A stretch of 5,607 nucleotides of DNA from Collinsella sp. (GTDB lineage Bacteria > Actinomycetota > Coriobacteriia > Coriobacteriales > Coriobacteriaceae): assembly GCA_022728415.1 (NCBI GenBank), contig JAIJJM010000160.1, forward strand, positions 1 through 5,607, written 5' to 3'. Position numbers and translations under genes: made by a program. The notes beneath the pieces are model-generated. The model was not told the origin of the DNA, made no database searches, and saw nothing but the letters and a program-made list of their open reading frames with translations. Positions 2,036 through 5,607 of the stretch are shown here, in pieces. The first letter of the stretch is position 1; each line of letters starts with the position of its first letter.

Positions 2036-3298
2036 TTAAGCGCCGTAGCCCATCGCTTGCAGCATAAACATGACGACCGTCAGCACCGTAATCACGCCGA
2101 TAGTCGCCCACGTGAGCACGTTCCATACGCGGCCGTTGCGGTTGGCGCCCATAATGTGGCGATCCGCCGCGATAACCACCTGGAATACCAAGACCACGGG
2201 CAGTAGCACGCCGTTGATGACCTGCGAGGTCATCATAATCTGGAACAGATCGACGCCGGGCATAAGCACCAACACGGCAGAGATACCGATGATGGCCGTA
2301 ATGATGCCGCGGTAAACCGGGGCCTCGTCCCAGCTGCGATCGGCGCCGCGCTCCCAACCAAAAGCCTCGCAGATGGCACTCGACGTAACGCCCGGCAGCA
2401 CGCAGGCAGCCAAAAAACTCGCTGCGACCAGGCCCGAGGCAAACAGTACCGTGGACCACTGGCCCGCGATGGGCTCCAGCGCACGGGCGGCATCGGCGGC
2501 ATCGCTAATCTGAATACCCGCCGGGAACAGCACCGTACCGGTCGTGATGATAATGAAGCCCGCAATAATATCAGCAGCGATCGAGCCGCTCACGGTATCA
2601 ATGCGCTGCAGCACGATGTCGTCCTCGCCCGCATTCTTATCGACCACGTTGTTCTGAGCCAAGAAGATCATCCACGGCGCGATGGTGGTACCGATCGTGG
2701 CGACCACGAGCGACACGTAGCTGGGATCGTTCTGAATATTGGGGACGACCAAGTCGACCGCGACCTCGCCCCAGTTGGGGCCGGCCATAAACGCGGCGAC
2801 GATATAGGTCACGAACACGCAGCTTACCAGCAGCAAAATCTTCTCGATGCGCTGGAAACTGCCCGACATGGTAAGCATCCACACCAGCAGCGCCACGAGC
2901 GGCACCGAGATGCTCGCCGGAACGCCAAACAGAGCAAGGCCGCTCGCGATACCCGCGAACTCCGAGATGGTCACCGCCGTGTTGGCGATCAACAGCGCCG
3001 CCATGGCCAGCACGCTCTTGCGCACGCCAAAGCGCTCGCGAATGAGCGACGCCAAGCCCTTACCCGTGACGCATCCGCAGCGCGCCGCGGTCTCCTGCGT
3101 CACGATAAGCAGCACAGTCATGACGGGAAGCATCCAGAGCATCTTATAGCCATAGCTGGCGCCCGCGCTGGAATACGTGGCGATACCGCCGGCGTCGTTA
3201 CCCGAAAGCGCCGCCAGCAGACCGGGGCCCATAGCGCCAAAGATGGCGGCGATGGTCAGCTTTTGTTTGGTGCTCGGCTTTTGGTTCGTGTTTTGCAC
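2036..3298 (-). CDS. NRAMP-related transporter, probable magnesium importer (NRMT type)
   Basis: This 420-residue protein has the NRAMP (SLC11) fold with about 11 hydrophobic helices, roughly 16-38, 50-70, 95-120, 124-144, 153-173, 194-215, 238-260, 282-304, 330-349, 353-378 and 391-415. Seen: helix 1 reads GPGLLAALSGNDAGG, so the metal-site DPGN is Asp35-Ala-Gly-Gly38. Helix 6 reads IGTTIAPW, so AxxMPH becomes Thr204-Thr-Ile-Ala207-Pro-Trp209. Known: DPGN and MPH coordinate Mn/Fe in classical NRAMPs. Their loss with Asp retained marks the NRMT clade, described as magnesium transporters in Clostridium acetobutylicum and Eggerthella lenta. Inferred: it imports Mg2+ across the cytoplasmic membrane. 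The GTG start at 3298 is chosen because AGGTGG precedes it by 4 bases and family similarity begins right after; an ATG at 3361 would add 21 unrelated residues inside the upstream gene. It lies 8 bases after the MgtE-like gene. Mn2+ or another divalent ion is the main alternative substrate. Confidence 0.9.
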   Translation of the reverse strand: MQNTNQKPSTKQKLTIAAIFGAMGPGLLAALSGNDAGGIATYSSAGASYGYKMLWMLPVMTVLLIVTQETAARCGCVTGKGLASLIRERFGVRKSVLAMAALLIANTAVTISEFAGIASGLALFGVPASISVPLVALLVWMLTMSGSFQRIEKILLLVSCVFVTYIVAAFMAGPNWGEVAVDLVVPNIQNDPSYVSLVVATIGTTIAPWMIFLAQNNVVDKNAGEDDIVLQRIDTVSGSIAADIIAGFIIITTGTVLFPAGIQISDAADAARALEPIAGQWSTVLFASGLVAASFLAACVLPGVTSSAICEAFGWERGADRSWDEAPVYRGIITAIIGISAVLVLMPGVDLFQIMMTSQVINGVLLPVVLVFQVVIAADRHIMGANRNGRVWNVLTWATIGVITVLTVVMFMLQAMGYGA

Positions 3299-3302
3299 GC
3301 GA

Positions 3303-3308
3303 CCACCT
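3303..3308 (-). promoter_or_regulatory. Ribosome binding site of the NRMT gene, overlapping the upstream stop codon
   Basis: AGGTGG (3308-3303) lies 4 bases before the GTG at 3298 and shares its first two bases with the TAG stop (3309-3307) of the MgtE-like gene. Ribosomes finishing the first gene would therefore terminate on the start site of the second. This suggests translational coupling and supports the GTG start. Confidence 0.6.
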
Positions 3309-5151
3309 ATCCCATGACCGATATGGTGAGTAGCACCGCAGAGATGCAGTACGCCACACACGAGATCATGACGGCGATGACGTTCATGGCGGTACCCGAC
3401 GTGTTAAGGTCGTGCTCATCGCGCCAGAACAGCACCATCAGGTAAATCACGGCGCTCATGTTGCCCACCAGGCAGATGATGGCGGCAATGTTAAAGCAGC
3501 CGGTAAAGAGCTGCTCCTCAAACATAGGGCCATCGGGGAACGCGGTGGTGCGCACCAGCTGCGCGCACAGGTAGGTCACGAGCGAAAGAATCAGGCCCAT
3601 ACCCGTGCTCTGGAAGAAGAATCCCAGGTACGGTTTGGGCTCGTCGTCGTGACCGTCGTACTCGAGGAAGTAGTTCTTGACGAACGACACCATGCGCGAG
3701 GCAGCCAGCAGCACGAGCGGCATGGCGCACATGGGGAACACTGCCAGATGCGCGGAGCCCAGCGTCGTCCCCAGCACCGTCGCCATAATGCACGAGGCGA
3801 TGCCCCACACGACAACCCAGTACTGACGATGCACGAACCAGCTGAGCACGTTCGTCGAGTCATCCGATGCGCTATCGCCCGAGCCGACACCGGCGATCTG
3901 CAGGTCCTCCTGATGCTCCTCGGCGATAACGTCCATGGCGTCGTCGAAGGTTACGATACCCAGGATATGACGGTTCTCGTCGCAGACAGGGATGGCAACC
4001 AGGTCGTACTTGGTCATCTCGTCCGTCACGTCTTCCTGGTCCTCGTCGGGCGACACGTAAACCAGATCGCGATAGGCGAGCTGGCCCAGCGTGGCGTCGC
4101 GGTCGGCCACGATCAGCGTGCGCAGCGAAAGCACGCCCGTCAGCATGCCGCTCGGATCCTCGGTATAAACGTAGTAGACACTCTCAAAGTCCTCGTCAAG
4201 TTTGCGAATCGCCTCGATGGCATCGCCGACCGTCGCCGAGGCGGGCAGCGAGACAAACTCCGAGGTCATGATGCGGCCGGCGGTGTTATCCTCGTAGCCC
4301 AGCAGATTACGAATCGCCTTCTCCTCCTTGACGCCCATCAGGCGCAGGAGCTTCTCGGCCTTCTCATAATCGAGCTCGTCGATCAGGTCGGCAGCGTCGT
4401 CCGGGTCCATCATGGCCAGCATCGACGATGCATCCGTGTCGGACAGGCCCTCGAGCATCTCGGTCATGAGCTCATCGTCATCGAACTCCGAAATGGCCTC
4501 GGCGGCTTGGGCGGTATCGAGCTGCGCGAACACCTGCGCGCGCAGGCGCGGGTCGAGCTGCTCGATGATGTCGGCGATGTCGGCAGGATGCAGCTCGCCA
4601 AGCGTCTTGTGCGACACCGAGAGCTGGATGTTCTTAGTTGAGCGATCGAGCAGGTCCATGTAAGACCAGGCGATAATGTCCTCGCCAAGCGGCTTGCCCA
4701 GGTGCTTCATAAAGCTCTCAACGACGTGCTCGAGCGCGGGGCTGATTGCACGCAGCAGACCGCGGGCACCGACCTCGGCACCCAGCAGGCGCAGCTGATT
4801 TTCGCCCGACATGGAGAACTTGATGTCGTTGACGCGCACGACCTTCATGCCCTGTGTATCGACGATCTGCTTATTGAGAACATCGCGCGCCAGCAACAGC
4901 TCGGTCGGCTGCAGATATGAAAAGCGAATGTTGGTGGCAGACGTATTGAGGTACACACCCGTCTCGTCGATACGGTCGACCCATTTGCGCCAGCTGATCA
5001 TAAACGGCGTCTTGCCGGGACCACGGAACGCGAGCGACGTCACGTGCGGAAAAACTTCGCCGGTTGCAATGCCAAAATCGTTAACCACGCCGAGCTTTTC
5101 GCCGTCGACATCCAAGACCGGCAGTTTGAGCATCTCACTCAGATAATTCAA
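3307..5151 (-). CDS. MgtE-like PRC/MgtE_N/CBS protein with non-canonical membrane domain
   Basis: This 614-residue protein is longer than the roughly 450 typical of MgtE. Domains in order: two PRC-barrel-like repeats (about 8-75 and 90-135, each with a DxxG...VND core), an MgtE N domain (about 184-290; LGELHPADIADIIEQLD, then acidic DDAADLIDELD), a CBS pair (about 293-416; MTSEFVSLP, GVLSLRTLIVAD, IPVCDENRHILGIVTFDDAMDV), a Ser/Asp linker and about five membrane helices (443-614). Known: in MgtE the N and CBS domains bind Mg2+ and close the pore when Mg2+ is plentiful. Seen: the membrane domain has no GGNxGxQ motif; the corresponding stretch reads LLAASRMVSF (481-490). By-eye alignment puts SCVAYC where MgtE has its conserved pore Asp. 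Inferred: it is more likely a magnesium-sensing partner of the NRMT encoded 8 bases downstream than a channel. Start: TTG at 5151, preceded by GGGAG with 5-base spacing; a TTG at 5163 has no such site. Automatic annotation would probably call it mgtE. Confidence 0.9.
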   Translation of the reverse strand: MNYLSEMLKLPVLDVDGEKLGVVNDFGIATGEVFPHVTSLAFRGPGKTPFMISWRKWVDRIDETGVYLNTSATNIRFSYLQPTELLLARDVLNKQIVDTQGMKVVRVNDIKFSMSGENQLRLLGAEVGARGLLRAISPALEHVVESFMKHLGKPLGEDIIAWSYMDLLDRSTKNIQLSVSHKTLGELHPADIADIIEQLDPRLRAQVFAQLDTAQAAEAISEFDDDELMTEMLEGLSDTDASSMLAMMDPDDAADLIDELDYEKAEKLLRLMGVKEEKAIRNLLGYEDNTAGRIMTSEFVSLPASATVGDAIEAIRKLDEDFESVYYVYTEDPSGMLTGVLSLRTLIVADRDATLGQLAYRDLVYVSPDEDQEDVTDEMTKYDLVAIPVCDENRHILGIVTFDDAMDVIAEEHQEDLQIAGVGSGDSASDDSTNVLSWFVHRQYWVVVWGIASCIMATVLGTTLGSAHLAVFPMCAMPLVLLAASRMVSFVKNYFLEYDGHDDEPKPYLGFFFQSTGMGLILSLVTYLCAQLVRTTAFPDGPMFEEQLFTGCFNIAAIICLVGNMSAVIYLMVLFWRDEHDLNTSGTAMNVIAVMISCVAYCISAVLLTISVMG

Positions 5152-5161: not shown

Positions 5162-5261
5162 AATCATTATTCCTACGGACCGCGCGACCATGCCGGCACG
5201 CCATCCGTGGACTTTTAGATATGTATACGCATGCGCAGGCGGCACACCGCTCGGCGCTCAC

Positions 5262-5447: not shown

Positions 5448-5607
5448 TAGTCATTGGGGACGTTCTTAAACGACTAGTCGTCGGGGACACTCTTTGCGAG
5501 CGGCAGAAAAGGACCGTTCCAAACTGCCGGCAAAAAAGGAACGTCCCCAAGTGCCGGCCGTTGGGGACAGTCCCCAAGTGCCGGCCGTTGGGGACAGTCC
5601 CCAAGTG
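5448..5607. repeat. 27-base tandem repeat array, degenerate on the left and exact at the window edge
   Basis: Units of 27 bases start at 5501, 5528, 5555 and 5582. The last two are identical as far as visible (26 bases), and the array runs off the window. The unit at 5528 shares GTCCCCAAGTGCCGGC with them but has an A-rich front half; the unit at 5501 is a diverged sister of it. Further left, TAGTCNTNGGGGAC recurs with exactly 27-base spacing (5448 and 5475), so the periodicity extends over about six units. The conserved units contain the odd palindrome TTGGGGACAGTCCCCAA (8 bp plus a central base). There are no unrelated spacers, so it is not CRISPR. It lies upstream of the operon promoter. 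The period is a multiple of three, so it stays open on the minus strand without being a gene. Confidence 0.85.

Follow-up and report, generated by a model that had tools for sequence, protein, structure and literature searches.

What is a protein with the Mg2+-sensing parts of an MgtE channel, and without its pore, doing beside a magnesium carrier? The question is raised by an operon in the window, as we call the whole 5,607-nucleotide stretch of DNA analysed here, in which two genes lie on the minus strand, an MgtE-derived gene (encoding the partner) followed by a carrier gene of the NRMT type. Where the protein matches listed bear an organism name, it is Collinsella or Enorma, and the window is probably from Collinsella. 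The features of the operon are:

3307–5151, minus strand: gene of the MgtE-derived partner (TTG start, 614 aa; TAG stop at 3309–3307)
3310–3876, minus strand: membrane domain of the partner, with predicted MgtE fold and pore determinants lost
3299–3309, minus strand: partner stop, ribosome-site-like stretch of the NRMT gene and spacer (the junction sequence, as printed)
2036–3298, minus strand: gene of the NRMT-type NRAMP, a predicted magnesium carrier (GTG start, 420 aa)
2014–1990, minus strand: intrinsic-terminator-like hairpin directly 3′ of the NRMT gene, at the end of the two-gene operon
Partner residues 7–65 (Pfam), about 8–175 (family alignment): PRC barrels
Partner residues 191–293 (618-aa numbering): MgtE_N (Pfam, 2.5e-24)
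Partner residues about 297–414 (618-aa numbering): CBS pair (two Pfam CBS matches, 6e-18)
Partner residues 444–613 (614-aa model): five membrane helices

An earlier note on this DNA had described both genes, a spacing of 8 bases and an overlapping ribosome site, and the open reading frames and junction sequence bear this out: exactly 8 bases (3306–3299) separate the partner's stop from the NRMT start, and AGGTGG, a stretch resembling a ribosome site, overlaps the partner's TAG. A longer mechanical reading frame of the partner starts at 5163 and has 618 aa. The window has five terminator-like sites against 3.1 expected from shuffles, and we take the hairpin at 2014–1990 as terminator-like for the operon because it is placed right after the NRMT gene. 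An M-box riboswitch in the window was considered and rejected, as there was no match to RF00380 at E values up to 10.

We found that the window's NRAMP shares 57% identity with EleNRMT of Eggerthella lenta (7qia, a solved Mg2+ carrier; E 5.2e-150) in an alignment of 410 residues. It has the NRMT motif pattern that had been read from the letters, with DAGG (in NDAGG) in helix 1 and TIAPW (in GTTIAPW) in helix 6, and these ion-site motifs are the same in EleNRMT (PMC8806188). As given in the available part of that paper, the NRMT ion site has Gly for Asn (DxGG) in helix 1 and, in helix 6, Ala for Met, Thr for Ala and Trp for the first His. Judged by its ion site and by its kinship to a proven Mg2+ carrier, the window's protein is an NRMT-type magnesium carrier, with transport as its predicted activity. 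The same part of the paper reports that purified EleNRMT transports Mg2+ alone, and it deals with the protein without a partner, whereas the window carrier is encoded with one. Activity of EleNRMT alone suggests that transport can proceed without the partner, as one would expect of a regulator and not of an essential component. In a close relative, E. sinensis (L001), an NRMT with 96% identity lies beside a partner for which a single membrane helix is predicted.

Judging from its residues, the Mg2+-sensing parts of the window partner are intact, as the earlier note had claimed for MgtE_N and CBS from the letters and as Pfam and the alignments now confirm. The eight cytosolic Mg2+-site residues of Thermus thermophilus MgtE given in the accessible text of an NMR study are all identical in the window partner: E59, D91, D95 and D226 correspond to E222, D255, D259 and D387, and D247, D250, E258 and D259 correspond to D408, D411, E419 and D420. 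All 63 five-helix relatives share D91, D247, E258 and D259 (MgtE numbering) and have an acidic residue at D250, whereas D226 (Mg5) is Asn in 24, D95 (Mg6) is Ala in 15 and E59 (Mg7) is non-acidic in 8 of the 63; repeats (L081–L084, L124), L061 and L149 are left out of this alignment. Relatives with one membrane helix keep E258 in only 14 of 76 cases, suggesting that the plug-helix site tends to accompany a full membrane domain. The ATP pocket differs from that of MgtE. Of the MgtE ATP residues named in the literature, in the parts available to us, Phe227 is Leu in 63/63 five-helix relatives and Asn203 is Tyr in 30/63, with Tyr170 and Arg187 mostly kept; the window partner has Leu for Phe227 and Thr for Asp188.

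The membrane domain gave no Pfam match to PF01769 in the window partner, but six relatives match this family at E 1e-5, five of them over the cut-off. A profile comparison with MgtE (hhalign) gave E 1e-8 over 171 columns, and an AlphaFold model (AF2, pLDDT 94.2) with the five-helix membrane fold of MgtE had the MgtE structures 4u9l and 2zy9 as its best PDB matches; structure prediction and fold comparison took 43/57 rows of alignment A1 as input. By profile and model, the domain descends from MgtE and has a real MgtE fold, and with relatives, profile and fold in agreement we rejected an origin unrelated to MgtE. The earlier note had assumed this descent and did not have the PRC-barrel region; both are established here from Pfam, profile and fold.

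The pore determinants, said in that note to be missing, are indeed lost. The GGNxGxQ motif of MgtE helix 2 is absent from all 69 aligned rows (66 distinct, the window partner included) and from all 240 homologues among the matches listed in two protein searches (the best 120 of 3533 and the best 120 of 4303); the 22 canonical MgtE rows were picked for having the motif, so that their motif count proves nothing. The pore Asp (D432, helix 5) is Val598 in the window partner (618-aa numbering), and a check for an acidic pore site, which the note had proposed, found no Asp or Glu in this column in any of the 69 rows or of 113 wider homologues. Gly328, needed for MgtE activity according to the accessible literature, is kept in 0/63 five-helix relatives. 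Purifying selection acts on all parts of the partner, and the membrane domain, with a dN/dS of 0.035, is under such selection and not debris, so that we rejected a decaying pseudogene domain. Of all parts it is also the one with the lowest conservation (a mean consensus of 0.43; the others have 0.69–0.78). An acidic residue in helix 2 is kept in 35 of 38 rows outside the window's own group, so that in the wider family the pore might be remodelled rather than dead; Asp stands at one helix-2 motif column in 104/113 of the wider set. Within the window's group (window, L085–L114), the helix-2 acid is absent from 30 of 31 rows.

We examined linkage in 149 Coriobacteriia genomes, an evenly drawn sample without completeness values. 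The partner was found in 126 and an NRAMP match in 124; both occurred in 122, the partner only in 4, the NRAMP match only in 2 and neither in 21 (Fisher p 1.6e-19, kinship ignored). The two genes are adjacent in 122 of 122 genomes with both, in reversed order in one (G102). Here neighbours are genes on the same strand and contig, and in 120 genomes the alignment ends lie within 650 bases; the other two are G048, in which the partner is in two frames, the nearer 143 bases off, and G102, with 49 bases between the genes. These counts leave out 22 weaker partner rows taken as canonical MgtE (26–34% identity, with matches that begin no earlier than query residue 172), and they keep three NRAMP rows (G017:C7, G027:C6 and G108) that, at 29–34% identity, probably do not represent NRMT. 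Judged by open-frame length, this sample has 104 long partners, including the split one in G048, and 22 short ones; for the fetched loci hydropathy was used instead. Canonical MgtE occurs in 3/122 genomes with the pair and in 14/27 others (Fisher p 6e-10, kinship ignored), a count that omits six weak PF01769 matches falling in the partner genes themselves. Canonical MgtE is thus nearly excluded from Coriobacteriia genomes that have the pair.

Among relatives of EleNRMT, 78 of the best 80 of 434 loci have a partner; in the two that do not, 186 and 175 bases lie between the start of the carrier frame and the end of the contig. A further 20 NRMT loci came from genomes that were found in a search of the phylum and are absent from the class sample, and their identities of 40–48% suggest other classes. 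An upstream gene containing MgtE_N is present in 12 of these (5 with a membrane domain, 6 without and 1 truncated), a downstream PRC-only gene in 9 and neither gene in 2. In 14 such genomes, searched with one of these partners, the best homologue is on another contig than the NRMT gene in 6 and adjoins it in 5; in 1 only a truncated homologue adjoins NRMT, and 2 have none. The sampled counts indicate near-strict linkage within Coriobacteriia and a looser one outside the class. Homologues lying mostly away from NRMT, which the earlier note had said would count against it, are therefore not the rule within the class, and 6 of the 14 genomes beyond it do show a separation. Partner-like proteins of 652–781 aa without GGNxGxQ were also seen in three genomes without an NRMT match (L135–L137), two of which also have no PF01769 match. 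Pore-less PRC-MgtE homologues away from NRMT were seen at L255–L260, several of them beside genes for S11 peptidases and phosphoribosyltransferases. A new carrier beside such unlinked homologues was rejected: of the adjoining genes examined, two are S11 peptidases by Pfam and one resembles them, and phosphoribosyltransferases (Pfam) lie near three of the homologues.

The partner beside NRMT takes several forms. It has one membrane helix in 76/76 cases in the set fetched with EleNRMT and is membrane-less at six loci. In a tree made by a quick method from 65 rows, with long branches that meet and used only for placing forms, five-helix partners occur in both main halves, and partners with one helix or no membrane part branch at separate positions. 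The easiest reading would be that an MgtE lost its pore early and was then trimmed more than once. Scanning 35 loci for the M-box Mg2+ riboswitch gave three with one in front of the operon (L223, L227 and L228), and in all three the partner is membrane-less. The PRC-only gene 3′ of NRMT (L216, L218–L222 and L224–L226; frames of about 190–300 aa) is found both where a partner lies upstream and where none does, and looks like a free-standing version of the partner's PRC part. One protein of 967 aa (P0013) consists of a partner cut short in the membrane domain and joined in frame to NRMT; a natural deletion or misassembly may have produced it. We rejected a natural partner–NRMT fusion, as this is one protein on one contig with the last helices lost. 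Long frames, such as one of 1061 aa in G114, were judged to be overlapping open frames.

A former magnesium channel now probably regulates the adjoining carrier. With moderate confidence, we propose that the partner is a membrane-held Mg2+ sensor, derived from an MgtE channel and without a pore, that would restrain the co-encoded NRMT when cytosolic Mg2+ is high. At high cytosolic Mg2+, the ion would bridge the same parts as in MgtE, namely MgtE_N, the CBS pair and the connecting plug, and the sensor, now compacted, would hold the carrier back; a fall in Mg2+ would let the sensor relax and uptake resume. The membrane domain would act as anchor and docking scaffold and not as a channel. Contact with NRMT, Mg2+ as the ligand and inhibition as the effect are what we infer from the sequences. 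This proposal draws on the NRMT identity of the carrier, the kept sensor sites, the lost pore, the near-strict linkage, the near exclusion of canonical MgtE, the purifying selection, the trimmed partners that still lie beside NRMT and the M-box that precedes a few of the operons. Counted against it are transport by EleNRMT alone and the co-expression of an Acidobacterium capsulatum pair described below, both as given in the available text of the papers, the sensor positions that vary in relatives, the Leu at Phe227, the four partner-only genomes, the looser linkage elsewhere and the lack of an M-box in the window. It is possible, although we advance it only tentatively, that the whole channel, membrane domain included, became a regulatory subunit of NRMT, an unrelated secondary carrier, docking against it in the membrane with its pore-dead body and relaying cytosolic Mg2+ levels, that it replaced canonical MgtE across most Coriobacteriia and that its membrane part was trimmed in several lineages.

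Other roles for the partner have to be weighed against restraint of the carrier by a sensor. Its pore might be remodelled and still conduct Mg2+ or some other ion, in which case one promoter would serve two independent routes. The retained five-helix MgtE fold, the helix-2 acid outside the window's group, the Asp in the wider set and the selection on the membrane domain would all suit a conducting protein, but neither GGNxGxQ nor an acidic pore residue was found in any row, the window's own group has almost entirely lost the helix-2 acid, the membrane domain is the part that varies most, and relatives with one helix or none stand beside NRMT. We regard conduction as quite unlikely. A role in the assembly or stability of NRMT, or as its chaperone, with Mg2+ sites that are structural and no gating, seems to us unlikely as well, if a shade less so. 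PRC barrels are often protein-binding modules, and a PRC-only gene follows NRMT in nearly half of the 20 further loci. A chaperone role was also named in the available text of Shin et al. (PMC4072509). The conserved Mg2+ sites, among them the plug-helix pair E258/D259, nevertheless fit sensing better.

A pair that deals with Mn2+ or some other metal, which the partner would sense, is in our view very improbable. The NrmT of A. capsulatum, which is also paired with an adjoining MgtE-like gene, looked Mn2+-selective and rescued a Mn2+ transport mutant, according to the accessible text of PMC4072509. The window carrier, however, is close to EleNRMT and has the NRMT-site Ala in Met's place, three relatives have an M-box riboswitch ahead of the operon, and the pair and canonical MgtE nearly exclude each other.

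The pairing itself is already known. As stated in the available text of Shin et al. 2014 (PMC4072509), most NrmT genes adjoin a homologue of the MgtE cytoplasmic domain, which lies directly upstream of NRMT as in the window, and the authors speculated that it might serve in feedback regulation or as a chaperone, so that the regulatory proposal is the same as ours. The earlier note's view of a sensor repurposed beside a carrier thus stands as far as the intact sensor, the pore-dead body and, in the class sample, the constant NRMT neighbour go, but the idea of a two-protein regulated importer had been published before; its observation is confirmed and its interpretation partly supported. In the same text, co-expression of the A. 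capsulatum pair in Bacillus subtilis gave no better Mg2+ rescue, a result that does not test inhibition. An M-box is reported there upstream of many, not all, pairs, and the window has none. What is new is a full-length, pore-dead partner that retains its membrane domain: in contrast to the cytosolic-domain genes of that text, the 614-aa window partner comprises PRC barrels and a complete membrane domain, and we found no such partner in the open-access literature as judged by titles and abstract openings, papers citing Shin et al. included. The partner shares MgtE_N, the CBS pair, the Mg2+-site residues and the five-helix fold with the MgtE channel (2zy9, 2yvx, 5x9h); unlike the channel, it has no GGNxGxQ, pore Asp or Gly328, has Phe227 and Asp188 replaced in the window, and has extra PRC domains and a link to NRMT. 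NRMT is a proven bacterial Mg2+ carrier, and the role of its neighbour was left at a proposal in 2014. The operon is real, well conserved and testable, and the kept sites, the lost pore, the linkage and the exclusion of MgtE make the idea of a feedback subunit sharply testable, EleNRMT included. Actinomycetota proteins annotated as 'magnesium transporter' or 'Mg2+ transporter MgtE' may not be channels.

Other features of the window lie outside the operon. A strong G-run/C-run hairpin at 1502–1560, 3′ of an upstream acyltransferase gene, is terminator-like by its place and has no T tail. Just past the NRMT terminator, an element of about 239 bp (1722–1960) has 40-nt terminal inverted repeats (1733–1772 and 1908–1947, 80%) and is matched in 18 of 39 genomes sampled from the genus of G097, with 10–28 matches per positive genome, many of them to the ends only; it is a MITE-like family. 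Direct repeats spaced 27 nt run from 5484 to the window's end at 5607, in four copies that are 63–72% identical to the reference.
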